This document shows positions 11,904 through 27,675 of a stretch of 39,694 nt of DNA, piece by piece; within the stretch, counting starts at the first letter, position 1; each line of letters opens with the position of its first letter. A model generated the notes under the pieces. The model saw only the letters and a program-made list of their open reading frames with translations. It ran no database searches and was not told the origin of the DNA. Location of the stretch: assembly GCF_004323185.1 (NCBI RefSeq), contig NZ_NAPS01000009.1, positions 1-39,694 of the forward strand, given 5' to 3'. A program made the translations under genes and the position numbers. This DNA is from Westiellopsis prolifica IICB1 (GTDB lineage: Bacteria > Cyanobacteriota > Cyanobacteriia > Cyanobacteriales > Nostocaceae).

Positions 11904-12024
11904 ATCATATTTTCGCCAATTCAAAATAAATACAGATGATAGTAAAAATGCTTTCTTCTAGCCCATGCGTTACGAAACTCCAGCAAGGTTTTTCTTGCGC
12001 CAGTGTTGTTCACCAATAATAGAC

Positions 12025-12153
12025 TTGTTGGGAAATAACGTTAAAAATCGCTGAAACGCTTGCACTATTTAGGTTTCAACTATTTTCAGACAAAATCGCT
12101 GAAATATCTGCTATGACTGAGTTCTAGGCATTTTTCGGCTTATTTCCCAACAA
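12025..12153. repeat. MITE-like element, 129 bp
   Basis: The ends TTGTTGGGAAATAA (12025-12038) and TTATTTCCCAACAA (12140-12153) are perfect 14-bp inverted repeats. Internally AAAATCGCTGAAA appears twice. There is no coding capacity, so it is probably a non-autonomous derivative of an insertion sequence. No clear target duplication is seen. It is one of three unrelated inverted-repeat elements in the 1.2-kb gene-free stretch 11784-12989. Confidence 0.7.
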
Positions 12154-12178
12154 CTCTAATAAACGTCGAAGTTTTCAA

Positions 12179-12312
12179 GCCACTCAAGAACTGGACGCGA
12201 TTAGGCGTAGGGGTAGGGGCGGCTACGACAGTCTTGGCCGCCTATGAGTAATCTTATTGCCGTCCCTACCACTGCCTAATCGAGCGTAGCGATCGTCCAG
12301 TTCTTGAGTGGC
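12179..12312. repeat. Long palindromic element, 134 bp
   Basis: The arms GCCACTCAAGAACTGGAC at 12179-12196 and its complement at 12295-12312 are perfect over 18 bp, and GATTAGGC pairs with GCCTAATC further in, with an extra 12 bases on the right side. Inside, GGTAGGGGCGGC pairs with GCCGTCCCTACC. The element can fold into one long branched hairpin. It resembles dispersed repeats of Nostocales; its right half contains a near-HIP1 site. Confidence 0.7.
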
Positions 12313-12510
12313 AACACGAGTAGACGTATTTGGATGTTTGCTGAGATACCAGCCCCAAAGAATTAGGGAAACTTTGCGGCAATAAAGGGGTCATCGCACC
12401 AAAAAAAGTCTTTTGTACGTTAAGGAATTAGACTAATTGCTCAAAGTATTATCAGGCAAGGCTTTCAGCTTAATGCTCTGTTTAATATTTTTTACTACTC
12501 AGGACTACTC

Positions 12511-12602
12511 AGGACTTACGCACAGGTAACGGAAAAACAAACCACAGAGGACACAGAGTACACTGAGGAATAAGAATTTGAGAGGTTTTTTGCGTAAGTC
12601 CT
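12511..12602. repeat. MITE-like element with AGGACTTACGCA ends, 92 bp
   Basis: Perfect 12-bp terminal inverted repeats: AGGACTTACGCA (12511-12522) and TGCGTAAGTCCT (12591-12602). The core holds ACCACAGAGGACACAGAG, a stretch seen in many Nostoc-type repeats. The same terminal sequence bounds the element at 19601-19780 and, with one change, the end at 23341. From 12603 to 12989 I see only AT-rich DNA without features. Confidence 0.75.
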
Positions 12603-12989
12603 ACTACTTTTAGACACTAAACACCAAAAAAATTCCATTTTTTTTCAATTGCCTGAAACGCTTGCTTCGTATGAGTTTTAGCCTTTTTAATATTTTATTA
12701 GCGTACAAAAAATCTCTTTTGGCACAGTCCCGCCATCTATAAAACGATACTTTTATTGAGGTATTATTTATACAAAACTACAAATGTATAAAAGCGGAGT
12801 CAAAAAAAATATTACCAATCTAGACAGATTTTCGATAGTAGGTCAGATTAAATAAACATAAAGTATTTCTTTGTATTTGGGAAACATGAATATTTGTAAA
12901 TAGTTTTTATTACTTTGTAAAAAAATAGATTTCTATTGTAAAAGCTTCTGAGTAACTTTTATTAAAAATTTGAGTAGTGTAATAACTAA

Positions 12990-14054
12990 ATGCGGGTTTT
13001 TGTAATTGGTGGAACTACGGTTGATCCGACTGAGCCAATGTTCCAAACACAGAAAGCTGTGCTTGAGCAGACTTGTTATCAGCTAGGCTGTTCTTTGGGT
13101 ATGGCAGGACATTCGCTAATTGTGTGCAGTCCATTTGAAAATACTGCGGATCTTGAGGTTATGCGAGGTTTCGCAGAAACACCGCCTCCGCGTCCTACAC
13201 TTGAGATCCACTATCCAGATTCTCAAACAGTAAATACCCGGTTCGATGAGGTTCTCAATCATTTCAAATTCTCAACGGTAAGCCGACACCTGTACCCTCC
13301 TCCACAAGTGGAGACTCGTGAAGCTTTCCAATACGCTTGGCTACTTTGCCAACTGAATGCTATTGAACGGAGCCATTTAATCATTGCAATAGGAGGAAAG
13401 CCAGACGGTGCAGCGAATATGTTACTCCTTATTGCAGAGGGAAGACGAAAACCACTTTTGCCAATTTCCTTTCTTGGTGGGACCGCCAGCCAATCGTTTT
13501 ACCGTTGCCGTTATGAGCTTACAGATCGGCTCGGCGAAGACATCGACGCCCTCCAAGATTCTGAACATATCGATAAAATTGTCCATCTTGCTGAACGTCT
13601 GGTTGATGGAAGATCAACTCCAGCAACTAAAATTAAAGGAATTCGACCTAATTTTTTCATCAGTTATCCACGAGCTAGACCTGCGGAAGCCGACTACGTA
13701 GAAACTATCCTTAGACGGCGAAATATGCTAGTTTTCCGAGACGAAACAGACTTTGGTGCTGGATATGACATTCCTAGAAAAATTCAAGAGGCGATTTTCT
13801 CTGCTGATGTGTTTGTTGCGCTTTGGTGTCGTGAATACGCGTGCAGTCCTTGGTGCTTTGACGAAATGGAACTTGCACTTGAAAAGCACGCACAATCACA
13901 GCTTGAGCTTTGGATATTTTGTGTTGATGAAACACGGATCATTCCACGACGAGCCAGAGATTTAGTTTTTTATCAAATAAAATCTCGTGATGAACTTGAG
14001 GGACGCATAGCGACGCTCCTTGATCGCATGGAAAACACTAACCCTAAAAAATAA
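12990..14054 (+). CDS. SLOG-TIR fusion protein
   Basis: The 354-residue protein has two parts. Residues 1-205 look like a SLOG/LOG-type Rossmann domain: an opening strand VFVIGGTT, the SLGMAGHSLIVCSPFE segment and the nucleotide-binding signature LIIAIGGKPDGAANMLLLIAEGRRKPLLPI (about 130-160). Residues 222-345 are a TIR domain: NFFISYPRA, then FRDETDFGAGYDI, and the motif SPWCFDEME, whose E292 is the expected catalytic glutamate. Family knowledge: TIR domains with this glutamate cleave NAD+ or make signalling nucleotides; SLOG domains bind such molecules, as in Thoeris ThsA. Having sensor and enzyme in one chain suggests a ligand-switched NADase. The gene is monocistronic and has no clear ribosome site. 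Confidence 0.8.
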   Translation: MRVFVIGGTTVDPTEPMFQTQKAVLEQTCYQLGCSLGMAGHSLIVCSPFENTADLEVMRGFAETPPPRPTLEIHYPDSQTVNTRFDEVLNHFKFSTVSRHLYPPPQVETREAFQYAWLLCQLNAIERSHLIIAIGGKPDGAANMLLLIAEGRRKPLLPISFLGGTASQSFYRCRYELTDRLGEDIDALQDSEHIDKIVHLAERLVDGRSTPATKIKGIRPNFFISYPRARPAEADYVETILRRRNMLVFRDETDFGAGYDIPRKIQEAIFSADVFVALWCREYACSPWCFDEMELALEKHAQSQLELWIFCVDETRIIPRRARDLVFYQIKSRDELEGRIATLLDRMENTNPKK

Positions 14055-14168
14055 TTGTTCGCCCTCAGTTAAATTTCATAGCACACAGGAAAGATACTAG
14101 ATTTATATACAATTTTTTAAAAGTTATGCTTTCAATTATTATTTTTCATATTTTTCCTATAATCTAAG

Positions 14169-14267
14169 CTATTCCTGCCATCTAAGTGCTTCCTTGCGTT
14201 TTCGTTCTAATAACTCTTGTGCAATACTCTCAGCAGGACGGGGTAGATATAGCGTCGCTCTATGCAT
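14169..14267 (-). pseudogene. Short coding remnant
   Basis: A 32-residue frame (MHRATLYLPRPAESIAQELL, then ERKRKEALRWQE) that reads like the C-terminal tail of a protein, continuing upstream for another 20 residues before a stop and lacking a ribosome site. It lies in the 800-bp gap 14055-14856, so it is probably the relic of a deleted gene. Confidence 0.3.
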
Positions 14268-14558
14268 TTCGTAATTAACAGACAAGAAGCATTTGTAACA
14301 AGTTAAAAGCGAGTGAATTTTGTCAATATGTCTTTAAGTAGAAATAAATGCATCTAAGAATTTTTAAGTATCTTAGCTGATTGAGGAGTATCCCAATCCT
14401 CTTACAGAAATTAAGTTTTAATAAGTACTATATTTCCTCACAAGTTCTTCAAATTCCTTTACTAACTTCAAGATAAAGATGCTACTAGATTGGATTCTCA
14501 ATTTTTAGCTAAAAATGTTTTTGAACCATATCTAAGACAGAAAGTTCAAAATTTGGTA

Positions 14559-14708
14559 TTGCATAATTTAAGTATGAATTAAATTATGCAACGCCGGAAA
14601 TAAAGGCTGAAAACGATTATCCTGCTTAGGTTTGATAATTTGTTACTTGTTTGTACTTAACACCGTTATAGGCAACGAAAAATCAAGCTTTTTCAGCCCC
14701 TATTTCCG
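14559..14708. repeat. Hairpin plus MITE-like inverted repeat
   Basis: Two structures sit side by side. TTGCATAATTTAA (14559-14571) pairs perfectly with 14579-14591 over a 7-base loop. Then CGGAAATAAAGGCTGAAAA (14595-14613) pairs with TTTTCAGCCCCTATTTCCG (14690-14708) with two mismatches, giving a 114-bp non-coding element. This lies just upstream of the vWA gene and may shape its promoter region. Confidence 0.65.
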
Positions 14709-14856
14709 TTTTCGTTCTTATCTCGGCTTAATGCCATATTACTCTTAGTTCACTTCGTTTGCAGGGGCATACACAACAAGATATCGCACAAACAGTTCTG
14801 AAAAAGAAGACCGAATTGCTTGCTGTCATTGCCAATACATCTAGGAGTCTCAAAAA

Positions 14857-16344
14857 ATGAAAAAAGATCAAATCAAGCTTGATATTCTCACAGAAAGACC
14901 GATAGTTAGAAATGATGCAACATCCGAGTTGGATGTTGTCATAGAAGTACGCTCGAACCAATCAACCGATGAACTCGACAGAAAAAAGGCTTTAAATCTA
15001 TGCCTTGTCATAGACCGAAGTGGGAGTATGAGCGAGCGAAGTGGGAGTATGAGCGCAAACAAACTCGAAACAGCAAAAAAAAGTTGTATTGATATCTATA
15101 AACAGTTAGACGAGAAAGATTTATTCACTGTTGTCGTGTTTGATGACCAAGCTGAGGTTGTTGTTAACCCTCAAGTCCCAAAAGGTGAGGTCATTGAAAA
15201 AATCAACAAAATAAGCACCGGAGGGCAAACTAACCTTTCATTAGGTTGGTATTTAGGTTTGCTGGAATTGCAAACCTACATGACTGAAAACCACAATAAT
15301 AGGCTTTTTCTTTTGTCTGATGGACGGGCAAATGAAGGCGAAACCAAAGTTACTACTTTAGCCCAAGAAGCCTCTAAATCAAGAGAGCTTGGAATTACTA
15401 CATCGACTATTGGTATAGGCGAGAACTTTCAAGAAGATATTTTAGCCGCCATAGCAACCGAGTCTGGTGGGAGATTTTGGTACATCCAAGAATCAGGGAT
15501 TGAACATATTATCGATGAAGAGTTCAAAGGGGCTTTATCCGTTATCATAGACCGACCCAGGATAGAGCTAAAACTGCCTGTTGGAGTGGCAATTAGTAAG
15601 GAATTAAATAATCTTGGCAAGCTTGGCAAGCTTGCTAACAAATATCAAGTTCGACCGATTAAAGGAGAAGATATCTTCAATTTTGCTGTTCGACTTGAAA
15701 TCGATCCTAAAAAAATTGAAGAGGATAATTTTACTCTTGAAGCTATCTTATATGACTATGACAGCGAAGAAACTATCGCTGAGACTCAAAAGTTAGTTCC
15801 ACTGAAATCATATCAAGAATATGTGTCTAGCAAATTCAATCCAATTGTCCAGAGTGTTGTTAAACAATTCGAGTCCACTTTAACAGGTGAAATGATAATC
15901 AAACAAATGTCAGAAGGCTCTCTGAACCTGATGAAGAAATTACTCATAGAAGAAGTTGACGGGATGCGGAAGGTTAGAGATGCCCTTTGGGAACAAAAAG
16001 AAAATGAAAGAGCTATACAGGAATTTACTGTTTTTCAGAAACGTCTACTTGGAAAGCAGAATGCACTATTAATTACTGAAATGCTAGAAAAATTTGGTAG
16101 CATTCAAGAAGTTCAAGACTTTATCAAGCGTTTCCGAAGAGTTAATGTGCAGGTAGAACAACAGTTTCACCAGATAGAACAACATCAGGTAGCTTGGCAG
16201 TCACATGAGGAAGATTTACAAATCTCTCTACTAGAAAGTGCTATCGATCTAGCCGATACTTTGATGCAGAAATTTCCAGATAAGACCAATGAGTTATTAG
16301 ATTATCAGAGGAGAATCAATGAGAACTTGGCGCGATATCAATAG
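14857..16344 (+). CDS. vWA-domain protein coupled to a TIR gene
   Basis: AGGAG (14843-14847) precedes the ATG by 9 bases. The 495-residue protein carries a von Willebrand A domain (about 45-215) with the metal-site residues D53-x-S55-x-S57 (VIDRSGSMS), T125 (GGQTNLSLG) and D155 (LLSDGRANEG). A beta-rich region follows (about 220-320), then a long helical, probably coiled-coil tail (330-495) rich in Glu and Gln. The metal motif is tandemly duplicated (RSGSMSERSGSMSA), see the separate finding. vWA domains mediate metal-dependent protein binding; next to a TIR effector it may be the adaptor or trigger. The last 26 bases overlap the next gene, so the two proteins should be made together. Confidence 0.88.
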   Translation: MKKDQIKLDILTERPIVRNDATSELDVVIEVRSNQSTDELDRKKALNLCLVIDRSGSMSERSGSMSANKLETAKKSCIDIYKQLDEKDLFTVVVFDDQAEVVVNPQVPKGEVIEKINKISTGGQTNLSLGWYLGLLELQTYMTENHNNRLFLLSDGRANEGETKVTTLAQEASKSRELGITTSTIGIGENFQEDILAAIATESGGRFWYIQESGIEHIIDEEFKGALSVIIDRPRIELKLPVGVAISKELNNLGKLGKLANKYQVRPIKGEDIFNFAVRLEIDPKKIEEDNFTLEAILYDYDSEETIAETQKLVPLKSYQEYVSSKFNPIVQSVVKQFESTLTGEMIIKQMSEGSLNLMKKLLIEEVDGMRKVRDALWEQKENERAIQEFTVFQKRLLGKQNALLITEMLEKFGSIQEVQDFIKRFRRVNVQVEQQFHQIEQHQVAWQSHEEDLQISLLESAIDLADTLMQKFPDKTNELLDYQRRINENLARYQ

Positions 16345-17287
16345 AGACTCTTGGACATTTACAAAAAAATTAATCGTAGGATATGGGGGAGGGATTGGCG
16401 TTTACAAAACCTCTTACGCCATTAACCAAGAAAGTGGGCTTATTCTTAATGGTAAAATTTCTGCTGATTTCAATATATCAAAGCGTCATTTAACAGGTGC
16501 AGGGTTAATTTTTCGAGCCGACGACTCTTGGACTTTTCTTGCCTTTCATACCGCACCTAGTGCTAATGGAGGTGATTTTACTTTGGCAAGAATTAGTCTA
16601 TTTAAGCAAGGAATGTTTTCTGAGATAGTTGCTTCTAGTGAGGAAGTATATTTGGACGATGACTTCAATCAATTTTCCTTAGAATTTTTTTCTGGTAAAG
16701 TCAGAGGTGAAATAAAAACCTCACAAAAAATCTATGAACTTACCTATACCTGTCCGTATATCCCATTTCCAGGATATGTAGGATTAGTCAAATTTTATGG
16801 GACTGGCGTTTCTGTAAAAAATGTAAGAATTGAAAAAACCGAACTTCCTTTTGAAGAAAAGCATAGCCGGAAAATAAAGAATAACTTTAAATATGATGTT
16901 TTTATCTGTCATTCATCTCAAGATAAGCCATTCATTCTAGATAATATTATCCCAGAATTTCAACAACAAGGTATAACTTACTGGTTTGATGCAGAACAAA
17001 TTAAGTTTGGAGATCCAATAACTCAAAAAATAGAAGATGGGTTGCAAAAAAGTAAGTATGTTCTGCCATGCTTGAGTGAAAATCTTGCACAGTCTGGTTG
17101 GACAAGAGCAGAGTATGGGTCAATTCTTAATGCTGAATTTAGTGGTAATTCAGAGCGCGTTACTATTCCTATAAAACTAGATAACTGTAGTGATAACGAT
17201 ATTCCTTTTTTATTAAGAGATAAAAAACGGGTTGAATATTCTAATCAAGTAGAATTTGCTGAATTTATGAAATTCTTGAAAAGTTAA
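16319..17287 (+). CDS. Beta-sandwich (lectin-like) TIR protein
   Basis: The start ATG lies inside the vWA gene and has AGGAG 5 bases upstream (16309-16313). The 322-residue product begins with a beta-rich domain (1-175; TGAGLIFRADDSWTFLAFHT, then GYVGLVKFYGTGVSVKNVRI) that resembles concanavalin-like/DUF1080-type jelly-roll domains used for glycan or protein binding. Residues 192-322 form a TIR domain: YDVFICHSSQDK, WFDAEQIKFGDPI and SGWTRAEYG, with E265 as the likely catalytic glutamate. It is a cytoplasmic protein (no signal peptide). I infer a two-protein system in which the vWA partner controls this NADase-type effector. Confidence 0.8.
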   Translation: MRTWRDINRDSWTFTKKLIVGYGGGIGVYKTSYAINQESGLILNGKISADFNISKRHLTGAGLIFRADDSWTFLAFHTAPSANGGDFTLARISLFKQGMFSEIVASSEEVYLDDDFNQFSLEFFSGKVRGEIKTSQKIYELTYTCPYIPFPGYVGLVKFYGTGVSVKNVRIEKTELPFEEKHSRKIKNNFKYDVFICHSSQDKPFILDNIIPEFQQQGITYWFDAEQIKFGDPITQKIEDGLQKSKYVLPCLSENLAQSGWTRAEYGSILNAEFSGNSERVTIPIKLDNCSDNDIPFLLRDKKRVEYSNQVEFAEFMKFLKS

Positions 17288-17570
17288 TGAATTAGAATAG
17301 TTGATATTTTACTTCCAATATTAAGGTAAACTATAGAAACAGTTATCTACAAAAAAAGAACATTTTTCAACCTAAAACATTTTATCTGCCAAGCTGCATA
17401 AGGCGTACCACTATAAATAAAACAGAATTTTATGCTATTTTAAGTCTTATTCTTTAAGTAACGATACACCTTAAATATAAATCTCTTTTAAAAACTCTTT
17501 ACTTCGTCTCAAAAGCCGTATAAATAGAAATTTATTACATCTTCAATTAACTGGCTGGAATAGAACTAGG

Positions 17571-18476
17571 GTGATTAAACAATCTCAACAAATAAGACAG
17601 CTTTTACAGCAAAAGTTTGGCAGAACATTCTCCACTGCTACTCTTGCACTGTTGCTAGCATTTTTATCTGGATTAAGACCAGTACAGCCAGCACTAGCTC
17701 AAACTCCAGCATCCAATCCTCAAAGCGAGCTTATCAAGGAAATTAAAGCACTGGCTCATAGTGATGCTGAGAATGAAATTCCTAGACGAACTAATTTTAT
17801 TATTGAGTTGTATAAAAATAACTCAGCAAGTTTAACTTCTCCTGCAATCAGAAGAATTTACGACGATGCTTATACTGAGCAAATTAAGCACCAAAATGAG
17901 ATTCGCAAGAACATTTGGATTGGTATCATCACTGTTCTAGCTCTTCTGGGACTGCCTTCAATTATTTTTGTAATCAAAAAGAAAACTTTATTTATGCCTA
18001 AATTTAAAAAAGTATCTGTTAGCCTTCCATTTGGCATTGGTTCTGCTGAATGGGAAGCCGACCCAACAGAGCGTAGGGCTGCTTGGTCGCTTTACGTTGA
18101 ACTGGTCACTCGTATTGCTGTTCAACCTTTAGAAGTTGACCAAGGACTTCTGCGAGAGGCCTTGACATCTCTGTACAACTTGTTTCCTGTAACACGACAA
18201 GTTCTCAAAGAAGCAGGCCCAGATGTGGGAGCATCCCGCGATTCAGTAGGAGGTATTGCTATAGCAGTGCTGAATAAAGGTCTTCGCCCTTTTCTTGCTA
18301 AGTGGCATCCACTGTTACAAACCTGGGAAGCCCAGCGTCCTCCGCACCTGAGTCCCAAAGAGCATGAGCGCAATTGGACTGAGGAACCACAATTGCGGGC
18401 TGAACTGGAATCTCTAAGAAAAGACTTGGAGCAATACGCAAATGCCTTGGCAGAGATTGTTGGAGTGGATCTGTAA
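17571..18476 (+). CDS. Signal-peptide membrane protein with conserved cytoplasmic domain
   Basis: GTG start at 17571. Residues 1-43 look like a signal peptide (TLALLLAFLSGL, ending PALAQ-TPAS). After a periplasmic segment of about 75 residues comes one membrane helix (about 115-137; IWIGIITVLALLGLPSIIFV) followed by basic residues, so the C-terminal half is cytoplasmic. That domain (165-300) begins AAWSLYVELVTRIAVQPL and contains RPFLAKWHPLLQTWEAQRPP and a heptad-like end. I have seen similar AWSLYVELVTR domains in bacterial conflict gene clusters but cannot name the family. It sits between two TIR genes, so a role in the same response is plausible. Confidence 0.6.
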   Translation: MIKQSQQIRQLLQQKFGRTFSTATLALLLAFLSGLRPVQPALAQTPASNPQSELIKEIKALAHSDAENEIPRRTNFIIELYKNNSASLTSPAIRRIYDDAYTEQIKHQNEIRKNIWIGIITVLALLGLPSIIFVIKKKTLFMPKFKKVSVSLPFGIGSAEWEADPTERRAAWSLYVELVTRIAVQPLEVDQGLLREALTSLYNLFPVTRQVLKEAGPDVGASRDSVGGIAIAVLNKGLRPFLAKWHPLLQTWEAQRPPHLSPKEHERNWTEEPQLRAELESLRKDLEQYANALAEIVGVDL

Positions 18477-18483
18477 ACGTCAT

Positions 18484-18538
18484 ACCCCAACAAGGGGTCG
18501 GCAGGCAAAATATACACAATAATTGATATCGTTGCCTG
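18484..18538. terminator. Hairpins between converging genes
   Basis: ACCCC-AACAA-GGGGT (18484-18498) and CAGGCAA (18502-18508) with TTGCCTG (18532-18538) lie between the stops of the membrane protein and the TIR-AbiTii gene. They suit a bidirectional terminator, though neither has a strong T-run directly behind it. Confidence 0.45.
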
Positions 18539-18555
18539 TGATTAAGTTATAAAAA

Positions 18556-19533
18556 TTAAATTTTTACTTCAGGCAATAGATCTAATAACTTCCTGGTCAA
18601 CTCTGTTCTTATTGATTCCAATAGTCCAATCAACGAAGAACTATCAAAATATAGGAAGATGGGTACTTCAGGCAAAATTGAATCAGGTATAATTTTATCT
18701 GAAGGTATCTCCATTGTCATCAGTTGTTTTCTAGGATTTTCAGGTAGTTGGTTTTCAATTTTTGATATTGGAAATGAAATTAAAACTTTCATAGAATGGA
18801 ATTCATCACTATTTCTCATGAAAGCTAAAATATTCGTTATACCTTCTCCCCACCCCATATATTGCATATTTATTTGTGCAATTGATGCAAACCCCTGCAT
18901 TAAACGATAGGAATGTCTTCCATCTGGTTCTTTACCTGTCGCTTCATCTAAACCTGACAATTCCTCTATACAAAAGCGCGCAAGCGATTGATTTTTTACC
19001 TTATGAGCAATAGCCAAAGCTTCCGCAACGCATTGAGATAAAGGAATTAAATTGGATTGTACCTTAGCAATTAAATTAGAAATATCTGAGCCGAACTCGT
19101 TTGCTTGAAATTTTAATTCTTTTGATTCTAATTGTCTATTGATAATTGGATTAATACTGCCAGAAAGTTGAACCAGACCTACAGAATAATTATTCCTAAA
19201 ATCAGCATATTTTTTAGTTTTAATTAATGAAGGTATTTCACAATCTTCAATCAGTATAGGCAAGACAAGAATTTGATTTTTTTCTATCTCATCCCAATAC
19301 TTTGTTTTCCATTCTCGTTCAACCCAATTAGATACTACTGAGTTACGAGAAAGAACAACCACTACATAATCAGCTTCTGTAATTCCATGTTCAACTTTAG
19401 TTACAATACAGTCTCCAACTTTTATTTCCCATTCATCTAACCAAGGCTGATTCCCAAGTTTATATAAATCCTCTGCTAATTTTCTTACAAAATCCTTATC
19501 TTTTAATGAGTGCGATATAAAGATTTTTGGCAT
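18556..19533 (-). CDS. TIR-AbiTii fusion protein
   Basis: The 325-residue protein starts with a TIR domain: KIFISHSLKDKDFVRKLAED, PWLDEWEIKVGD, DYVVVVLSRNS and SNWVEREW, with E74 as the likely catalytic glutamate. From about residue 160 it resembles the AbiTii abortive-infection domain (LSQCVAEALAIAHKVKNQSL, then ARFCIEELSGLDE). The last 100 residues are not recognised. This TIR is of the bacterial conflict type that acts on NAD+; the AbiTii part is linked to abortive infection in other bacteria. The gene is monocistronic and faces the membrane-protein gene. Confidence 0.78.
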   Translation of the reverse strand: MPKIFISHSLKDKDFVRKLAEDLYKLGNQPWLDEWEIKVGDCIVTKVEHGITEADYVVVVLSRNSVVSNWVEREWKTKYWDEIEKNQILVLPILIEDCEIPSLIKTKKYADFRNNYSVGLVQLSGSINPIINRQLESKELKFQANEFGSDISNLIAKVQSNLIPLSQCVAEALAIAHKVKNQSLARFCIEELSGLDEATGKEPDGRHSYRLMQGFASIAQINMQYMGWGEGITNILAFMRNSDEFHSMKVLISFPISKIENQLPENPRKQLMTMEIPSDKIIPDSILPEVPIFLYFDSSSLIGLLESIRTELTRKLLDLLPEVKI

Positions 19534-19600
19534 ACTACTAAATTCTGCTGTTAAGTAAATCAGGCTTTTTCAACTCATTCTATTTCCCTTTGCATTATTT

Positions 19601-19780
19601 TTAGGACTTACGCATTGACAGAAAAGTAAAAATAGGGGGTATGCTTTTCAAGGCTTCTAGCTACACTTTTAGGCTGCTTTTTTGCGATCGCAACCAAGAA
19701 AGGGTGATTGATAAAAAGCTGAAACGACGTATTTACGTTGATACACAACATAGTTCGTTTGTACAGTGCGTAAGTCCTAA
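19601..19780. repeat. MITE with ends shared with the nearby transposase element
   Basis: The left end TTAGGACTTACGCATTGACA (plus GAAAA, 19601-19625) and right end TGCGTAAGTCCTAA (19767-19780) are inverted. The left 25 bases match, with one change, the reverse complement of 23317-23341, the right end of the transposase element. There is no plausible gene inside; a HIP1 octamer sits near 19681. The rest of the gap 19534-19926 is AT-rich and featureless. Confidence 0.8.
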
Positions 19781-19926
19781 TTTTGATGTTGTTGTGAACT
19801 GCTTTTATCTTTTAGGATCATACTATTACTCCTAATCTTCTCAATAAATATAGGGCAAGACTTAGTTGCAAAAATTTTAACTACTAGCACTAGTAATCAT
19901 TACACTCACTACATAGATAATTAAAT

Positions 19927-20871
19927 TTAGGAATCATAAGAATATAAAAAAGACTTTAAATATTCTAGACCTGGGAATACTGAGCTTTCCAAAATCAATA
20001 CAGGAGGTAGAAAAGAAACGGGATTATGATGAGTGTAGATTTGCTTATGCTTAACATGAATTACCCAAGAAACAAGGACAGCAGTTCTTTCCCAGTGGGA
20101 AATTTTTGTCTGCCTTTTAATAAAGTCTATTAAATAATTAGGAAATTCATCTTCAAAAACGAAACATAAAAGACTATTGGGCATTTTGTTGACGGATTTT
20201 AAATTAAAATAGTCAGGCAAGGTTTGTGTAATTTCAAAAAACCGATCGCGTAGCTCTACAATCTGTCTTTCGTTCAATCCATCAGCTTTCTTAAAAGCTA
20301 CTAGCTCTACTATTGGAGAATTTCGTTTGAATCCTATAAAGTCAAAGTCTGAAAAGTTTCGGGATAGGTCATAAACGCCTTTGTCATGTATCAAGCGTGT
20401 TCGCAGTTCGGAAATAAACCTGATTTGTTTGATATTTTCACTTCCAGGTGGAGTTTGTCCAGTAATCCCCCACTCCAGCAAATTCAAAGTCTCTACATCA
20501 TCAATTCGCTGAGAAAAACTGACATGTCTATGAAGTCGCAAAAATCGCAAATGTTCGGGAATGTCTTGAACGCCTGGCAGTAAAACAGGAATTATAGATA
20601 TATTATTGGCTACACACTCTTGTATCAGTGACTCTAATTCCAGAATTTGCCAACGTCCTAATCCTTTGATACCAATAAAGATAGCAGCAGATTTCACTAG
20701 TGGAATTGCTTGTTGAATTGCTTGTTGAAACGAAGTTCCTGGGCGAATTCGCTCCTCATCTAACCACGGCTTGAGATTACGCCGTCGCAGTTCTTGAGCG
20801 ATCACTCTTACTTGCTCTTTATCAAAACTGTTGTGAGCAAGAAAGACATCAAATGGAGGATGGTCTCTCAT
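19927..20871 (-). CDS. TIR-domain protein with unknown C-terminal domain
   Basis: The 314-residue protein has an N-terminal TIR domain (7-130): FDVFLAHNSFDKEQVRVIAQ, PWLDEERIRPGTSF and GRWQILELES, with E78 in the catalytic position. The C-terminal part (about 150-314) has strands and helices (FDFIGFKRNSPIVELVAFKK resembles a D...ExK arrangement of restriction-like folds, but this is weak) and is not assigned. TIR proteins of this shape are frequent in cyanobacteria. The gene has mobile-element debris on both sides, and with the inverted ends at 19601 and 23341 it could be cargo. Confidence 0.75.
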   Translation of the reverse strand: MRDHPPFDVFLAHNSFDKEQVRVIAQELRRRNLKPWLDEERIRPGTSFQQAIQQAIPLVKSAAIFIGIKGLGRWQILELESLIQECVANNISIIPVLLPGVQDIPEHLRFLRLHRHVSFSQRIDDVETLNLLEWGITGQTPPGSENIKQIRFISELRTRLIHDKGVYDLSRNFSDFDFIGFKRNSPIVELVAFKKADGLNERQIVELRDRFFEITQTLPDYFNLKSVNKMPNSLLCFVFEDEFPNYLIDFIKRQTKISHWERTAVLVSWVIHVKHKQIYTHHNPVSFLPPVLILESSVFPGLEYLKSFLYSYDS

Positions 20872-21131
20872 ATAAATGGGTGATTACTATTTATGTATAC
20901 ATACGTTACAAATTATAATGGATTGTTCTGTAACTATACTTAAACTGTTCCAACACCACTCCGTAGAAACCCTAACGTACCTCGTTGTAGTAAATGACAT
21001 TTATTTAGTGTAACACGTATAATTTCGGTTACAAATTGTTATAAAAGGCTTAGCGGGACTTAGACAAAAAAAGAAGAAAAAACAGGGTATAATGCTTGAC
21101 CAGCATCGCTTTCACATCAAAATAACATACG

Positions 21132-21483
21132 ATGAAAGAGACAACCCCCGCAGCCATGCCACCCTGCTTTGAAAAGTGGTGTCAAAAGTTTGATCAAGCT
21201 TTTAGTCATAAAGCCCAAAAAAGAGGATTTAGGCATTATTTGGGGGGATTATTGGGTGAAAGTGAGAGAAAAAACCTATCTCAAATGGCTAATAACGCTA
21301 TAGGGGTTGAATACCATTCAATTGCACCACTTTTTAACTGAAGCACCATGGTCTGATTCCAAGGTTAACGAACTTAGATTAGAGGCTATGGGCAAGTGTA
21401 GTCAAACTAGAATTAGTAGGGGATTTAGTTTGATAATTGATGATTCTGGTCACAGAAAAAGTGGAAATTTCACTTCGGGAGTG
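21132..21483 (+). pseudogene. IS701-type transposase remnant
   Basis: The N-terminal part of an IS701-family DDE transposase: FEKWCQKFDQAF, GFRHYLGGLLGESERKNLSQ, HHFLTEAPWS and LIIDDSGHRKSGNFTSGVG, the last containing the first catalytic Asp region. The frame is broken near 21320, where one extra A in CATTCAATTG would explain the switch. The gene is cut at 21483 by the start of a MITE, so at least two events disabled it. Confidence 0.85.
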
Positions 21484-21840
21484 GGCGTAAATAGAAGGTT
21501 CGTGCAACCAGGGGCAATATGTAGCTAAAAACCTTATACAGCAACAGTTACAGAGATTTATACAAGTTTTAACCGCGCTCATTAAAAGATAAGTTGCACA
21601 AATAGTTTTTCTAGCTCATAGACAGTAAAATAACTTTGCCTAAAACAGAACTTGGATTACCTGGAAGTTTGTGTCTTAAAGTATTATCGCTCCGTCTCGA
21701 AACTGAAAAATATTGCCTAAAATGAGACGAACTAGGCAAAGTTATCATTTGTATTTCTTATCAATTAAGGCTAAATAAAGGGTTATTTTTACTAAATTTT
21801 ACAAGGTTGCCCCTGGTTGCACGAACCTTCTATTTACGCC
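21484..21840. repeat. MITE-like element, 357 bp, 34-bp perfect ends
   Basis: GGCGTAAATAGAAGGTTCGT (continuing to 21517) is repeated exactly, inverted, at 21807-21840. Inside, a second perfect inverted repeat (ATAACTTTGCCTA 21630-21642, TAGGCAAAGTTAT 21733-21745) suggests a further nested element. It interrupts the IS701 transposase remnant and directly abuts the next inverted-repeat element. No coding capacity. Confidence 0.85.
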
Positions 21841-22127
21841 GAGATACGTGCAAATTGGGACACGTTGTAAAGTTTTGTAAAGCTAATTGTCAAAAACCTT
21901 GATTTACCGTTGTTTCAGCCTCAAGCATTACTTAACTATTCAAATGAAGACATTCCCTAAAAGGGTCATTTTTGGGCAAGTGTCAGGCACAAAAAGAGGT
22001 GAAAGCTTGGTTTTATCGTGCAAAAGTTTGATTCGCCCATTATCATTTTTGGGAAAGTTAGTAAATCAGCAAGAGATTGTTTGCAATATTTATTTACAAC
22101 GTGTCTCTTTTTGCACGTATCTCGGCG
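21837..22127. repeat. Second MITE-like element abutting the first, 291 bp
   Basis: CGCCGAGATACGTGCAAA (from 21837) and its inverted copy ending at 22127 form 35-bp ends with three mismatches. The CGCC at its left edge is shared with the right edge of the previous element. The core contains no gene. It runs up to the 5' side of the next transposase. Confidence 0.75.
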
Positions 22128-22205
22128 GCTACCCTAATAGTGTAGGAACATTTCTCCTATAACAGGAAAGAAATTGATGAATTTTTGGCATCAAAACCAC
22201 CGAAG

Positions 22206-23310
22206 ATGGGGATAAGTTCCATAACCAAAAATAAAATCGGAACTTTGTATCTCTGCGTGGCACTTCATGGCAGCTTCTCTAGCTTTAGCCCTACTAAAGC
22301 ATCAACCGCTAAATGTGACTTGAACACTTATACTTTGTTTCTACTGGCAGAATCAAAGTATCCAGGCTGCACACGTCTGGCAGAGATAATGGAAGATATA
22401 TCTCATGATAGTGTCAACAGATTTTTGCTGCGTGAGCGATACGAACCCAAGGACTTATTTGAAGAAATCAAGCCAAATATCAATTTAATTGGAGGTACTT
22501 TAAGTGGAGATGATACGGTAATTGATAAACCACATAGCGATCCAAAAATAACAGAATTAATCGGTTACTATTATTCGGGGAGACATCATCGTGCCGTCAA
22601 AGGAATTCAATTAATTACCCTGTATTACACGGACTTATCAGGTAAGTCTGTACCTATAAATTATCGCATTTATAATAAACAGGAGGGAAAGACTAAAAAT
22701 GACAATTGAGGAAATGATTGCGGAGGTTTTGACTTGGGGGTTAAATCCAGAAACCATAACTACTGACACTTGGTATTCGAGCCAAAAAAACTTAAAGTTC
22801 TTTAAAGACAAGGGATTAGGCTTTTTAACTGGAATAGCTAAAAATCGCTCATGTTCGGTTGATGGGAAGAATTTTACTCAAGTCCAAAATATAGAAATTC
22901 CTGCATCTGGTTTAATAGTGTATCTGAAAAATTTTGGTCAAGTAAAAGTATTTCGTCGAAGTTTCAAAAACGAAACTTCTAGATATTACATCATGTATAC
23001 TCCTGAAAAAGATACACTAAAGTCAATTTCAAGAACAGAATTTAAGGAACTACATTCTATTCATTGGGGAATTGAGTGTTACCACTCCAGCTTTAAACAA
23101 CTATGTGGTATCGGTCAATTTATGGTCAGAACGACTGAAGCAATAAAAACTCATTTTTTTAGCGCAATTCGAGCTTTTACACAATTAGAATTAATGCGTG
23201 CAGAAGATTTAATTGAAAATTGGTATGAACTCCAAAGAAATTTATCTCTTCAAGTAGCTCGTGACTTTATTTTAGAACACCTAACACAGAAGTTTAACTT
23301 CTCTGCATAG
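22206..23310 (+). pseudogene. DDE transposase (IS4/IS701-like), frameshifted
   Basis: Two overlapping frames (22206-22709 and 22699-23310) together encode one DDE transposase. The first holds LAESKYPGCTRLAEIME and GGTLSGDDTVIDKP (first Asp) up to NKQEGKTKND; the second continues EEMIAEVLTWGLNP, TTDTWYSS (second Asp) and HWGIECYHSSFKQ (catalytic Glu). The join is at about 22700-22712 and lacks an A6G-type slippery site, so I read it as a disabling indel rather than programmed frameshifting, but this is not certain. The 5' portion before the SPTKAS block looks abnormal and may be rearranged by the MITEs upstream. Confidence 0.75.
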
Positions 23311-23316
23311 TATCAA

Positions 23317-23341
23317 TTTTCTGTCAATGCGTAAGTTCTAA
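23317..23341. mobile_element. Right end of the transposase element
   Basis: The end TTTTCTGTCAATGCGTAAGT (to 23341) is the inverted partner of 19601-19625, with one mismatch in 25. It sits 6 bases after the transposase stop, as expected for an insertion-sequence end. No matching left end was found directly upstream of the transposase. Confidence 0.75.
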
Positions 23342-23477
23342 CGTTGTGAAATCAGTCTTTTAGAAACTTTGGCTTTCACTGCCTTCTAGCCAACCTATGG
23401 AATAATAAGGCTTTTAAGTATTAAGATATATTTCGCCAACAGTCAGTGTCTTGGCTACTTTTACCCCAGATTGAGGG

Positions 23478-24887
23478 TTAAATCCTATTCATTAATCGGT
23501 AAACTGGAAGCTCCTTAAGTCGCCCTACACTTCCATCTTGTTGATCTGCAAAAAGTTGTATAACCCAAAGAAAGCGTGGTTTTTGCTCTGAAATGGTAAG
23601 CGGCATTGAACTATTGGGGCATGTTAAAGTTTCTAATCCGTGCGCTGCTCGCTTTAGTTGTTCCAACGAAACAATGAGTTCTCCTTCTCGAAAAAACTTC
23701 AGAAAATCATCGATATCAATACTTTGCAACTCTTCATAGAATTGAGCAATGGCCGGAACAGTTCTGCGGTCAGTTGGAAGTTTTTTCTCAGATCCACAAG
23801 GTATTATGTAGTAATCCCAAAACTCTGACGAAAAAGCAGGTTCATCAAGCATGAACAGACTTTTGACAGCAGGAATGCTTGACCACATTTGCTCGGATAC
23901 AAATTTATTACGGTCTAATACTTCAGGAGCCATCATATTGGGATGACTGTTGGTTTGGTAACGAGTCATTCGCGCTTTATGATTTTCTGACAGCTTTGGC
24001 AGGTATCGCATATCTATTGGATATACAGTATCCTTATCCTTTCGAGGATCGTAAATTTTTAATTTGTTTGGCAAATTGTTTTGAGAAGTGAAGTAAAGGG
24101 TTGATAAAACTTCTCCTCTTGTCCACCAAGAATTTATGTAGTCTTCTGTCCAATATATCCAAACTTCTCTTGATGCAATAATGTAATCTTGTATGATGCT
24201 GAGTAACTGCCATCTTCTAAGAGGACTGAGTAATTCATCTTCATAAACGAGTTCACCAGGGTCAAAATAAAAAATAAAGGTGTTTTGGTACTTTTCCTGT
24301 TCCCTGAGACGTTGAGCAAGTTTTATGACATTGGCATGATGCCTTGAACGGTAGCTAATAAATATCTGGTTCTTCTCTTCAGGAGGCTGATATCTAGGAT
24401 TAATTACTGGCTGCCACCCCTCAATGAAAAATCGAATTTGCCACGGTAAAATTTTTTGAAAAAAGTTATGTTTTGGAGGCTTTTGAGAAATTTTCTGTAG
24501 CTCCCCATCAAGCCAACCAAGTATAGACTGGTTTGTCTTCTGTCCTAGTGGCGTTTGAGGATCTGAGTATTTTGCTGTTCCACCTTCAATAGCACCTTTG
24601 AAATTCAGAGGAACATACGATCTGGATACTATCAATACTCTTTCAAGTAAGCTCGACGGTGCTACAAATCTGTAATTATGTTTCTCAGCATCATCTTCAA
24701 GCGTTGCATCAAGTACAACAGCATCAGCATTAGCATATGCATAGAGGAGCTGCTGCGGTGTAGCGTGCTCAAGCACAAGTACGCGAAATCCGTACTTTTC
24801 TTCAGCTAACTTTTTTACCTCATGAGCCAACTCCTTACCAAGAGAAGTTCGGGTTGGAAATACAACTAAGTTTAATTCTTCTGCCAT
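23478..24887 (-). CDS. Rossmann-like/TIR protein with long C-terminal domain
   Basis: I start at the ATG at 24887; a TTG six codons earlier gives a longer N terminus, but a 13-bp direct repeat (AAGAATTAAACTT) spans that point. The 469-residue protein has an N-terminal alpha/beta domain (1-100; LNLVVFPTRTSLGKELAHEV, then ADAVVLDATLED), which looks like a receiver- or Rossmann-type sensor. A TIR domain follows at about 174-275: IFISYRSRHHANVIKLAQRL, FYFDPGELVYED and SWWTRGEVL, with E259 as the likely catalytic residue. The remaining 190 residues are unassigned. A gene for a tiny hydrophobic protein ends 21 bases upstream, on the same strand, so the two probably form an operon. Confidence 0.72.
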   Translation of the reverse strand: MAEELNLVVFPTRTSLGKELAHEVKKLAEEKYGFRVLVLEHATPQQLLYAYANADAVVLDATLEDDAEKHNYRFVAPSSLLERVLIVSRSYVPLNFKGAIEGGTAKYSDPQTPLGQKTNQSILGWLDGELQKISQKPPKHNFFQKILPWQIRFFIEGWQPVINPRYQPPEEKNQIFISYRSRHHANVIKLAQRLREQEKYQNTFIFYFDPGELVYEDELLSPLRRWQLLSIIQDYIIASREVWIYWTEDYINSWWTRGEVLSTLYFTSQNNLPNKLKIYDPRKDKDTVYPIDMRYLPKLSENHKARMTRYQTNSHPNMMAPEVLDRNKFVSEQMWSSIPAVKSLFMLDEPAFSSEFWDYYIIPCGSEKKLPTDRRTVPAIAQFYEELQSIDIDDFLKFFREGELIVSLEQLKRAAHGLETLTCPNSSMPLTISEQKPRFLWVIQLFADQQDGSVGRLKELPVYRLMNRI

Positions 24888-24908
24888 AAGTTTAATTCTT
24901 ATCAAGAA

Positions 24909-25079
24909 TTAATAGAGTTGGTCTCTCCTTAACGCTCCAACTAGTTGGAGGGCAGTGCCAGCCAAAGCAGCAGCGGGGGGGAAGAAGAGAGAAGCAATAC
25001 CATCCAGGGCATAGCAGGTAATTGCACCTCCTACTGCTGCTCCCGCCATTGTAACAGCGCCTCCAACAAGACCATCCAT
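24909..25079 (-). CDS. Tiny glycine-rich hydrophobic protein upstream of a TIR gene
   Basis: A 56-residue frame (MDGLVGGAVTMAGAAVGGAI, then CYALDGIASLFF and a short charged end RRDQLY). An in-frame stop precedes the first ATG directly, and GGAGG lies 10 bases before the second ATG (25049), so the true start may be Met11. Gly and Ala spaced as GxxxG/AxxxG suit a membrane-inserting or helix-packing peptide. It ends 21 bases before the TIR gene start. I infer a small membrane partner (pore, anchor or antidote); no family is recognised, and its size alone would make most gene callers miss it. Confidence 0.55.
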   Translation of the reverse strand: MDGLVGGAVTMAGAAVGGAITCYALDGIASLFFPPAAALAGTALQLVGALRRDQLY

Positions 25080-25509
25080 CTATAGGGGTAAAATCATCGA
25101 AGCTGACGTTTGCCGCCACATAAAGTCTAAAACCCTTGCTGTACAAGAGATTTGAAAATAAAAATGCAGTTGCTCACGTATATAGTCGTATGTAGTACGC
25201 TACTGCTGTACCAATTGACCTTTAAGCTATTTGGTACAGCATTCGGTAACGTAACCATGCGGCTTGGGGGCTGTAAAATTCAGTAGGGTTTAAATGGTAC
25301 AGATACTGCTGGCGAATTGTTTCTTAACATCTGAAACACCGATTTTGCCGTTGATTGAATTACAGAACTTAACTGTTTTAAGTTCAGCGACAACAGAATT
25401 TCAAAGGCTTTAGAGTATTAAGCAATGTTTCGCCACCAGTATCAAAATTGGACAAGACCCCAATATGAATGTCAAATCCATGACTACGTGCAAGGGGAAA
25501 ATTTTACAA
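25080..25509. other. Gene-free stretch
   Basis: No gene on either strand. It contains the third copy of the dispersed repeat with core TTTCGCCACCAGTATC (25418-25443), similar to 23421-23447 and, inverted, 8711-8736. The TIR/microprotein promoter should lie around 25100-25200. Confidence 0.35.
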
Positions 25510-27675
25510 TTATGACAAATCATAACGCTCTAGAAGAGCATCAGCCCATCGACCTATTTGAACTTCCTTGACCCATTGCCGTTGATCAGACCATCCACGA
25601 CCCCAAAATGGTAAATGTCCTGGAGGAGCATCTAGAGAGAAGGTGAGGTTGTAGTGATATATCCATTTGCCTAAGACAGACCAGCCTACTTTGTAACCGA
25701 AGTCTTTTTCACTTTCTTTCACATCTTCCCAAATGTGTTTCTGCACACTAAAACCAAAGTGTCCATGACTGTATTTCAGCCATAGTTCGTTAATAATACA
25801 TAAACTCGGGTAGGGAAGGTTGTAGACGGATTCGATATCAAGCCAACCTTTTTCTTCTCTGTGAGTTAATTGAAGTATGATAGAGCGAGTCTCCAAATCT
25901 GCATATTTCCAATTTTCAGAGGCTAAGAGATTTCGTAATTTTGTGTAATCTATTATCCTTTCACTTCTGGTGTCATTAATTGAACCTTCAACATCAACCT
26001 CTATCTGAGGAGGGACAGATTCAATATTGCACCTTTTAAATCTTGCTAGAAGAGAAGAAGTAGTAGTACCTGGTGAGCCAGCAATTGCAAAGTACATATC
26101 CCACCAACAAACAGGGAAATGTCCTTGGGGAGCATTTTTAGTAAAGATGAAGTTAGAATAACCTAGCCACTTGTTATTCACACGCCAGCCAACGCGATCA
26201 CCTAAACGACACTCGGTTTCAACATCTACTTTGCCACCGACTTCTTGCCAAATTCTCTTTTGCACACTAAAGCCAAATTGTCCATTGCTGTACTTTACCC
26301 ACAGTTGGTTAATGGCATGTAAGTCAGTACAAGGAAAATTATTGAAGGATTGGATATCAAGCCAACCTTGTTTTTCTCTGCCAGCTACTTTTAACATGAC
26401 AGCGAAAGTTTCTCGGTCAGCTTCTTTCCATTTTCCAGATGCTAGTAAATCCCGCAGCCGCGTATAATCTATTTTGCTTTTAGAACTTAGGTCGTCAATT
26501 GAACCTGTTGAGTTAACATCGAACTCTGTCTGAGCAGGGTCACGTTTTATATTACAATTCTCAAGTCTCATGATCAAAGAAGAAAGCTCAAACCCACCTC
26601 GCCATTCGTCCCACATTCGGGGAAGATGTCCTGATGGTGCATCTAGGTTGAAATTGATTTCAGAATAATTAGACCATTCTCTAGAAGTCCAGCTAGTAAA
26701 CAGAAATTGATAAGACCTTGTTGTTCGCCATCCCACACAATCTCCAAAACTAACCCAGACTTCATCATTAAATACATCTCCACTTCCAATATTTTCCCAA
26801 ATCTGCTTCTGGACACTGAAGCCAAATTTTTTTTTGCTGTATTTTATCCAAAGTTGGTCGATAGTATGGAGGTCGGTACAAGGAAAATTATTGATAGATC
26901 GGACATTGAGCCAACCTTCTTTTTCTCTGCCAGCTATTTTTAACATCACAGCGCGAGTTTCGTGATCGGCTTGTTTCCAGTTTCCCACCTTAAGTAAATC
27001 CCGCAAAATTGTATAATTTATATGGCATTCGCTACTGAGGTCATCGCCTGAATCATATCGCTCATTTTGCAATGGGATTTGAGTTTCAAGAACTTTTTCT
27101 TTACTAGTTTCAACAGTAAGTTTTTTTAAGATTGGTATTGAACCCTGTGAAAAATCTTCCATTTGAATGGCAACCAAACCTTCTTCAAAAGCTCTTTGAA
27201 TAACGTTTTGACTATCTCGATTTTCATAACCCAAACCATCATAAAACCCTTGAGCAAATGCAATCGCAGCTTTGTCACCGATTGGGTGGTTCATACCAAT
27301 CGTGTAATTAATATGTTGGCTTATTGCTTGGGCTGGTTTTTCTGAATAACAAGCATTGAGTAACACACAGTTAACATAATCGACGTGCAACTTAAACAAT
27401 GATGCTAATCCTTCTGGTGAAACTGGTTTGTTATTCCCTGCATCGTCCTCTAACAGCAAGCTACCATCTTGCTTACCATGCCCACAAAAATGAACAATTT
27501 GAGGCTTCTCTTCCTCAATCGCCCTACGAATATCGGCTGGACGTACAGCAGTAATTATGCGAATTTCAAATAAATCCCGATTGGTCGCTCGTCGTATAGC
27601 TGAGGAGATTTCTCGAATCTCTTTATCTAAGCGCAGCCCATGAGGAATGGCTGCCAATAGTAAGATTTTTTGCAT
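25510..27675 (-). CDS. CHAT caspase-like protease fused to three GUN4 domains
   Basis: The 721-residue protein begins with a CHAT protease domain (1-185): the catalytic His is in VHFCGHG (H66) and the Cys in LLNACYSE (C109). After a linker come three GUN4 domains at about 219-360, 402-525 and 575-695, each with the same order: YTxLRDLL, W-K-ADxET, GREKxGWL, FPCTDLHxIxQLWxKYS, FGFSVQKxIW, a VGW strand and a DAPxGHLP end. Family knowledge: GUN4 binds protoporphyrin and Mg-protoporphyrin and stimulates Mg-chelatase; cyanobacteria also fuse GUN4 to signalling domains. Three copies on a caspase-like protease suggest control by tetrapyrrole state. The repeats are diverged, so the triplication is not recent. 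The gene is monocistronic next to the TIR cluster. Confidence 0.92.
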   Translation of the reverse strand: MQKILLLAAIPHGLRLDKEIREISSAIRRATNRDLFEIRIITAVRPADIRRAIEEEKPQIVHFCGHGKQDGSLLLEDDAGNNKPVSPEGLASLFKLHVDYVNCVLLNACYSEKPAQAISQHINYTIGMNHPIGDKAAIAFAQGFYDGLGYENRDSQNVIQRAFEEGLVAIQMEDFSQGSIPILKKLTVETSKEKVLETQIPLQNERYDSGDDLSSECHINYTILRDLLKVGNWKQADHETRAVMLKIAGREKEGWLNVRSINNFPCTDLHTIDQLWIKYSKKKFGFSVQKQIWENIGSGDVFNDEVWVSFGDCVGWRTTRSYQFLFTSWTSREWSNYSEINFNLDAPSGHLPRMWDEWRGGFELSSLIMRLENCNIKRDPAQTEFDVNSTGSIDDLSSKSKIDYTRLRDLLASGKWKEADRETFAVMLKVAGREKQGWLDIQSFNNFPCTDLHAINQLWVKYSNGQFGFSVQKRIWQEVGGKVDVETECRLGDRVGWRVNNKWLGYSNFIFTKNAPQGHFPVCWWDMYFAIAGSPGTTTSSLLARFKRCNIESVPPQIEVDVEGSINDTRSERIIDYTKLRNLLASENWKYADLETRSIILQLTHREEKGWLDIESVYNLPYPSLCIINELWLKYSHGHFGFSVQKHIWEDVKESEKDFGYKVGWSVLGKWIYHYNLTFSLDAPPGHLPFWGRGWSDQRQWVKEVQIGRWADALLERYDLS

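Follow-up and report, generated by a model that had tools for sequence, protein, structure and literature searches.

The stretch analysed here, called the window throughout, is the entire contig NZ_NAPS01000009.1 (C24 in our numbering; 39,694 bases) from the 7.31-Mb genome of the cyanobacterium Westiellopsis prolifica IICB1. It carries five genes for TIR proteins (T1–T5) and, between T2 and T3, an open reading frame (ORF) at 17571–18476 (+) that the initial annotation had passed over. The C-terminal domain encoded by this ORF, of ~160 residues, was named KWH in this analysis after its motif R-P-F-x-A-K-W-H. The relation between KWH and TIR genes is the subject of this work, and the genes concerned are the following:

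12990–14054, + strand: T1, a SLOG-like N-terminal part (residues 1–212, weakly supported) and a TIR domain (222–337) with E292; Pfam TIR_2
14857–16344, + strand: vWA protein, encoded at the head of the vWA-T2-KWH row; Pfam VWA, E 7.2e-16
16319–17287, + strand: T2, a front part (beta-sandwich according to the initial annotation) and a TIR domain (194–312) with E265; Pfam TIR_2
17571–18476, + strand: TM-KWH, with a leader-like start, one hydrophobic stretch (around residue 114) and a C-terminal KWH domain (about 137–301)
17979–18473, + strand: the KWH domain proper, containing the motif; alignment of 61 rows and AlphaFold model
18556–19533, − strand: T3, a TIR domain (4–116) with E74 and an AbiTii-like tail (153–319); Pfam TIR_2
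19927–20871, − strand: T4, a TIR domain (9–122) with E78 and a tail of no assigned kind; Pfam TIR_2
23478–24887 (24905 with a TTG start), − strand: T5, a front part (Rossmann-like according to the initial annotation), a divergent TIR domain (about 181–283 from the TTG start) and a long tail; profile comparison

All five ORFs that had been read as TIR proteins within 12 kb were recovered, and T1–T4 exceeded the Pfam TIR_2 cut-off (E-values of 1.8e-15, 5.3e-22, 3.7e-28 and 4.8e-16, respectively). T5 did not reach it (E 2.9e-4; 21.8 bits, with a cut-off of 28). When a profile of five T5 relatives was compared with a TIR profile by hhalign, the probability was 96.7% (E 3.8e-10) and W-x3-E was aligned on W-x3-E; three unrelated window proteins, used as a control, scored below 4%. 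All five rows of the T5 alignment have W261 and E265, and the possibility that T5 is not a TIR protein was ruled out by the profile comparison. The glutamates proposed as catalytic in T1 to T5 (E292, E265, E74, E78 and E259, the last being E265 when T5 is numbered from its TTG start) all lie within W-x3-E, whose glutamate we take to be the catalytic site of the TIR domain. Judged by their sequences, the five proteins are likely to attack NAD. The ThsB models of PADLOC also matched TIR parts (best E 4.4e-14, for T2), with no match for T5.

Pairwise identity among the five TIR domains is 16–32%, and the attached parts have no mutual match at E ≤ 0.1, which agrees with the earlier view that the partner domains all differ. 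Local duplication of one TIR gene was ruled out by this low identity and the unlike attached parts. The SLOG identity of the T1 front is weakly supported: Gly-rich motifs are common to three sequences, the match to 1rcu, presumably a LOG-like structure, is weak (E 0.27), and a single-sequence structure model of T1 was of low confidence (pLDDT 36). The tail of T3 matched AbiTii at 2.2e-5 in Pfam (25.2 bits, below the cut-off of 27.6) and at 1.9e-7 in PADLOC. The vWA partner suggested for T2 was found in the gene directly upstream of it.

The distribution of these genes was determined in a family sample of 145 genomes, W. prolifica included (thresholds of 1e-20 for T1–T3, 1e-15 for T4 and 1e-10 for T5), and in a phylum sample of 244 genomes. 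T1 occurred in 1/145 family genomes (its own) and 1/244 phylum genomes, and T5 in 1/145 and 2/244. Matches to T2 were present in 3/145 family genomes, two of them with the full length (W. prolifica and the genome G005). T3 matched in 9/145, at full length in its own genome only and elsewhere by the TIR part alone, while T4 matched in 43/145, at full length in two (its own and, at 96% identity, the genome G037) and in the rest mainly by the TIR part. The vWA protein occurred in at least 1/244 phylum genomes, a lower bound, with six candidates scored in most of the listed genomes. Pattern scans of IMG/VR for relatives of T1, T5 and T2 gave none that was confirmed. Such sporadic occurrence ruled out housekeeping genes. 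The divergence of the TIR domains, the unlike attached parts and the rarity of full-length relatives thus uphold the claim of accumulation by gain: on sequence grounds, the five TIR genes are accessory, gained rather than duplicated.

Of the 19 TIR_2 matches in the genome, five fall on this contig, whose share of the total sequence is 0.54%; the binomial P is 5e-8, for a contig chosen post hoc. A control on 24 other relatives used E ≤ 1e-6, a cut-off that T5 would fail. Its largest TIR groups comprised four matches within 3.7 kb in G005:C35, corresponding to three or four ORFs, and four within 1.7 kb in G011:C1, which seem to make up two ORFs. The 22.6-kb Gloeothece plasmid pP742404 has four annotated TIR genes. 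Since these three also have them, TIR clusters are not unique to the window.

The TM-KWH gene looks chimeric in sequence. Its GC content is 0.36 in the 5′ part and 0.48 in the 3′ part; the 3′ part is 94% identical to its counterpart in G037, and the 5′ part recurs, among the loci compared, only in the genome G251. We aligned the KWH domain of the window with those of 60 out of 79 loci described below (alignment A2, 61 rows). R103, H110 (R103-x6-H110) and E41 are invariant in it, and R45 (E41-x3-R45) is conserved in at least 90% of the rows. The AlphaFold model of the domain (pLDDT 89.2, pTM 0.83) consists of a strand pair and helices. Searched against Pfam and NCBIfam, the KWH ORF and the 61 rows of A2 yielded no match or just stray, weak ones, and PADLOC returned nothing; the sequence matched nothing in the PDB at E ≤ 1. 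A Foldseek search of the model against the PDB and BFVD returned nothing at E ≤ 0.001, the best PDB match being the FAT four-helix domain (E 0.39), and the KWH protein of G037 had no match among 50,697 phage records.

A scan of genome contigs with two short, conserved KWH peptides found 250 relatives; the 80 best were kept and make up 79 loci, mostly in cyanobacteria, plus Chloroflexi, Planctomycetota and one Omnitrophota. TIR ORFs at these loci were found with a profile started from T1–T4 and counted within the available flanks. A TIR ORF was present at 70/79 loci. At 58 loci it lay on the same strand within 150 bp of the KWH ORF (48 downstream, 10 upstream), at 12 it was farther off or on the opposite strand, and nine loci had none, three of these with fewer than 300 bases available downstream. 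Going by how densely TIR genes occur in W. prolifica itself, ~2% would be expected. When KWH sequences were merged at 90% identity, 38/45 representatives had a TIR ORF and 31/45 an adjacent one; the corresponding numbers were 22/28 and 17/28 at 80%, and 6/9 and 5/9 at 70%. The link between KWH and TIR by gene order is strong. One further KWH locus was found in a pattern scan of IMG/VR (L124, on a 113.6-kb contig), with a TIR gene 88 bp downstream; a gene near it reads like a phage small terminase.

Attached parts vary among the 58 adjacent TIR proteins. According to Pfam, TIR_2 is present in 57 of them, GUN4 in 25 and WD40 in 11; ten TIR proteins scanned singly (nine of them KWH-adjacent) also had adenosine deaminase, Ras, TPR and methyltransferase parts. 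F10, D38 and E78, the glutamate of G-x-W-Q-x-x-E, are invariant in the KWH-adjacent TIR domains. Mean identity is 70% for KWH versus 35% for its TIRs, and the two distance tables are correlated (Mantel r 0.42; 0/2000 shuffles as high). Directly upstream of KWH, four loci in Calothrix and Dulcicalothrix (L083, L086, L088, L090) have proteins of ~1000 residues; that of L083 is a WD40-Ras-TIR protein, and the other three are similar in length and TIR position. By eye, and uncounted, there also seems to be a TIR gene upstream of KWH at L082 and a deoxyribosyltransferase-like gene downstream of it at L079.

The same association is seen for relatives of several of the window genes themselves. The vWA gene overlaps T2 by 26 bp and TM-KWH begins 283 bp past T2; G005 has the same order, with a vWA gene (46% identical), a full-length T2 relative (44%) and KWH. 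The vWA loop of the window protein (residues ~54–67) includes a tandem seven-residue repeat (RSGSMSE) that its G005 relative does not have. In G037 the homologue of T4 lies 886 bp from the KWH gene. The genes of G251 for a T5 relative (75%) and TM-KWH stand side by side with a short T5-like gene and one for a TIR-SLOG protein (SLOG cluster 2 in Pfam). A tree of TIR domains, built from few columns and with long branches for T1 and T5, placed T4 within a 96/96-supported group of 28 rows, 22 of them KWH-paired, and T2 with two relatives that are both also KWH neighbours (99/93), while T3 fell near both unpaired and paired rows (95/72). Only 1/500 shuffles had as few changes of KWH pairing on this tree.

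KWH was found in 11 plasmid records, one from Calothrix and ten non-cyanobacterial; eight of the latter were examined, and two further records of Streptomyces longwoodensis were left out. A TIR gene was present in the stretch at 7/8 of these plasmids, in S. longwoodensis by annotation alone and with a transposase between. KWH of Mesorhizobium and of Sinorhizobium is fused to a patatin-like phospholipase part with hydrophobic stretches (the Sinorhizobium match is below the Pfam cut-off). On pSchITTGS70c of Sinorhizobium chiapasense (L144), six TIR ORFs were recognized by profile (E 1e-4 or better) in ~9 kb around the KWH-patatin gene, of which four are annotated as TIR and one is below the Pfam cut-off. 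Among them is a relative of T1, 43% identical over 98% of the length and 1.5 kb from the KWH-patatin gene. This locus adjoins genes annotated as thymidylate synthase and nucleotide kinase domain. Two TIR ORFs by profile, and three by annotation, accompany the Mesorhizobium KWH-patatin gene. Two Streptomyces proteins and that of G251 have hydrophobic stretches ahead of KWH, as in the window. On the Mesorhizobium (L143) and Gloeothece (L001) plasmids, a TIR gene of ~165 residues adjoins an Nmad2 gene, possibly a separate TIR-Nmad2 pair.

Next, we compared the window with G037, whose DNA is 94–96% identical to it across the KWH domain and T4. Between these two, G037 has a gene of 252 residues where the window has T3, and two short stretches of the window lie beside T3:

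19545–19601, strand not assigned: 57-bp possible remnant of the 252-residue G037 gene, matching its 5′ part at 93% identity; DNA comparison
19602–19786, strand not assigned: stretch of ~185 bp not in the G037 homologue, its left end an inverted copy of 23308–23341 at the end of the transposase region; DNA comparison

Because the 57-bp trace of the replaced gene adjoins T3, an insertion of T3 at this place is suggested, though unproven. By reading, KWH and the T4 homologue of G037 sit between two nifK pieces, beside a large serine recombinase; Pfam confirmed nitrogenase component 1 for the longer piece. From this context, these genes lie in a nifK excision element of ~11 kb (L030 1703–14528, G037:C241), which also has a gene reading like a DNA methyltransferase. 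Excision elements of nifK are already known (PMC4874684); a look through the main text of that paper met neither "TIR" nor "defense".

The contig has genes of plasmid type, including a relaxase, a NikA/MobC-like protein, two ParA-like proteins and a DUF3854 protein (profile scans). Plasmids of Nostoc, Calothrix and other cyanobacteria match parts of 12000–25500, none covering more than 80% of the stretch. A comparison of the contig ends revealed no terminal overlap. The earlier placement of the TIR genes on a plasmid thus stands insofar as mobilization genes are present; we call the contig plasmid-like, its circularity being unproven because the ends do not overlap. A transposase region lies between T4 and T5:

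22185–23310, + strand: transposase region comprising two ORFs, of which the second alone matches DDE_Tnp_1; its DNA resembles annotated cyanobacterial transposases

Two inverted-repeat pairs of 34–35 bp at 21484–22127 are perhaps small mobile elements; this region matches several cyanobacterial plasmids. A further likely defence protein, NNH2-NACHT-HEAT, is encoded at 1531–4437 (+) (Pfam NNH2 3e-61, NACHT 1.1e-14). Adjoining T5, the gene at 25510–27675 (−) encodes a CHAT domain followed by three GUN4 repeats; the GUN4 part matches the PADLOC model PD-T4-6 (8.4e-129), perhaps because that model includes GUN4 fusions. The protein of 9274–10692 (−) has a weak HEPN_MAE_28990 match (E 0.0021, below cut-off).

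KWH genes adjoin TIR genes across many bacteria, so that several sensors and a shared partner may here form one immune system and not five separate ones. We propose that it is a plasmid-borne, Thoeris-like TIR immune locus with KWH as the common receptor or effector, and give this reading a probability of roughly 0.4. Several TIR proteins with differing attached parts would each detect a different cue of invasion and act on NAD+. The KWH protein, anchored in the membrane by its hydrophobic stretch, would be the common partner in place of ThsA, most likely as receptor or effector for the nucleotide made by the TIR proteins, and its response would damage the membrane. That one KWH protein would be common to all five is best founded for T2, extends to T4, T5 and T1 through their relatives, and does not extend to T3. 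In Thoeris, a single ThsA is combined with one or multiple ThsB, and one kind of ThsA is TM-macro (PMC11204291). ThsA effectors are of SIR2-SLOG or TM-macro make-up. The window resembles Thoeris in that its TIR domains have the glutamate, that there are several TIRs per partner gene and that the partner sometimes has an N-terminal membrane part; it differs in that KWH would replace ThsA and that some of its TIR proteins have large extra parts. We regard as doubtful the wider proposition that TIR-made NAD+ derivatives are bound by KWH as a new kind of receptor domain, distinct from SLOG, macro, CARF and SAVED and present in six phyla, that its membrane stretches or patatin would lead to membrane attack, and that one KWH gene would serve up to six TIR sensors, swapped as cassettes on plasmids and a heterocyst excision element.

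Several observations weigh against a shared KWH partner. T3, T4 and T5 of the window are encoded on the strand opposite KWH. One TIR ORF and one KWH ORF is the arrangement at 59/79 loci, and a hydrophobic stretch was found in 0/79 KWH ORFs of the scan, which makes them mostly soluble proteins with no visible effector part. Because it used two short peptides and the best 80 of 250 relatives, the scan itself leans to close relatives. KWH is present in 13 of the 244 sampled cyanobacteria, and only one out of 14 TIR_2 matches elsewhere in the W. prolifica genome adjoins a KWH gene. On the chromosome, KWH is paired with a TIR-GUN4 gene at C1:730837. The pairing is scattered over the TIR tree, with 13 changes, at least nine of which are forced by supported branches. 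No TIR gene lies in the KWH stretch of Ruegeria. Plasmids with multiple TIR genes can also do without KWH, as the Gloeothece plasmid, which has four, gave no match to it. The fold of KWH matched nothing significantly, SLOG and macro sensors included, and neither SIR2 nor macro was detected in the 26 scanned of the 32 window ORFs of at least 100 residues.

In a rival reading without a common partner, every TIR protein would suffice by itself as an NADase of defence, the five having gathered on a plasmid defence island, and KWH would belong only to the vWA-T2 row. This is a serious contender, if short of probable. The TIR genes are diverged, lie on both strands and are each rare in full length; the contig also has the NACHT-HEAT and CHAT-GUN4 proteins, 13/14 other TIR matches of the genome are without KWH, and the Gloeothece plasmid shows the same lack. 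However, relatives of T4, T5 and T1 elsewhere are also near KWH genes. The store of defence modules seen in the initial annotation agrees with gained TIR genes that have the glutamate on a plasmid-like contig, but the modules are not simply five independent ones, as T2 is within the vWA-T2-KWH row and KWH is a frequent TIR neighbour.

Alternatively, KWH could regulate the TIR NADase, as an inhibitor or antitoxin or as an activator or scaffold, encoded by a small upstream gene as in toxin-antitoxin pairs. KWH is directly upstream of the TIR gene at 48/79 loci, often by 1–20 bp or overlapping it, and the lack of a hydrophobic stretch in all 79 ORFs would suit such a role. We nevertheless consider it unlikely, as the TIR proteins that KWH would bind are far less conserved than KWH itself and belong to very different branches, while the patatin fusion and the membrane stretches suggest an output role. 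It is highly improbable that KWH is an all-helical, HEPN-like RNase effector triggered by TIR: R103-x6-H110 and E41-x3-R45 recall the Rx4-6H and Ex3[KR] motifs described in the consulted part of PMC3710099, and Foldseek gave a weak match to a HEPN-MNT chain (8xeh, E 1.7, prob 0.16), but no fold match is significant, a proline and not a polar residue follows the arginine, the Rx6H lies inside a long helix, whereas in HEPN the motif is at the end of helix 3, and the arginine is replaced by glycine in the Ruegeria relative.

Other known systems share some features with the locus. The MoxR-vWA ternary conflict systems have variable partner domains, GUN4 among them, and GUN4-TIR fusions are mentioned in the sections of PMC7159879 that were available. 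As far as those sections go, the likeness lies in vWA and TIR in a cyanobacterium with variable partners including GUN4, and the difference in that vWA and TIR are here separate, overlapping genes with KWH as the third. Membership was rejected, as no MoxR AAA+ ATPase was found in the 26 scanned window ORFs, nor, by reading, beside the G005 genes. SpbK and the CARF-TIR protein Cat1, each a lone TIR NADase of defence as described in the abstracts consulted, are similar in joining one TIR to one other domain, whereas a recurrent extra gene, KWH, is present here. GUN4-TIR and WD40-TIR proteins are the commonest kinds among the 58 KWH-adjacent TIRs; the adjacent KWH-like gene is not mentioned in the parts of the literature examined. 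The KWH-TIR partnership was not met in the consulted parts of PMC7159879, PMC8195603, PMC10907252, PMC12507012, PMC3710099, PMC9503650, PMC11204291, PMC13232231, PMC4874684 and PMC13174449. A 2025 preprint on the discovery of TIR systems, outside this set, may include KWH. We make no claim that the partnership is unpublished; it may already be in print.

Some multicellular cyanobacteria have around twenty TIR genes, mostly without a known system. As a conserved, unnamed partner, KWH allows one class of TIR loci to be recognized from gene order, and it points to a possible receptor or effector for TIR products. In conclusion, the cluster in W. prolifica is a testable candidate for several sensors with one common effector.

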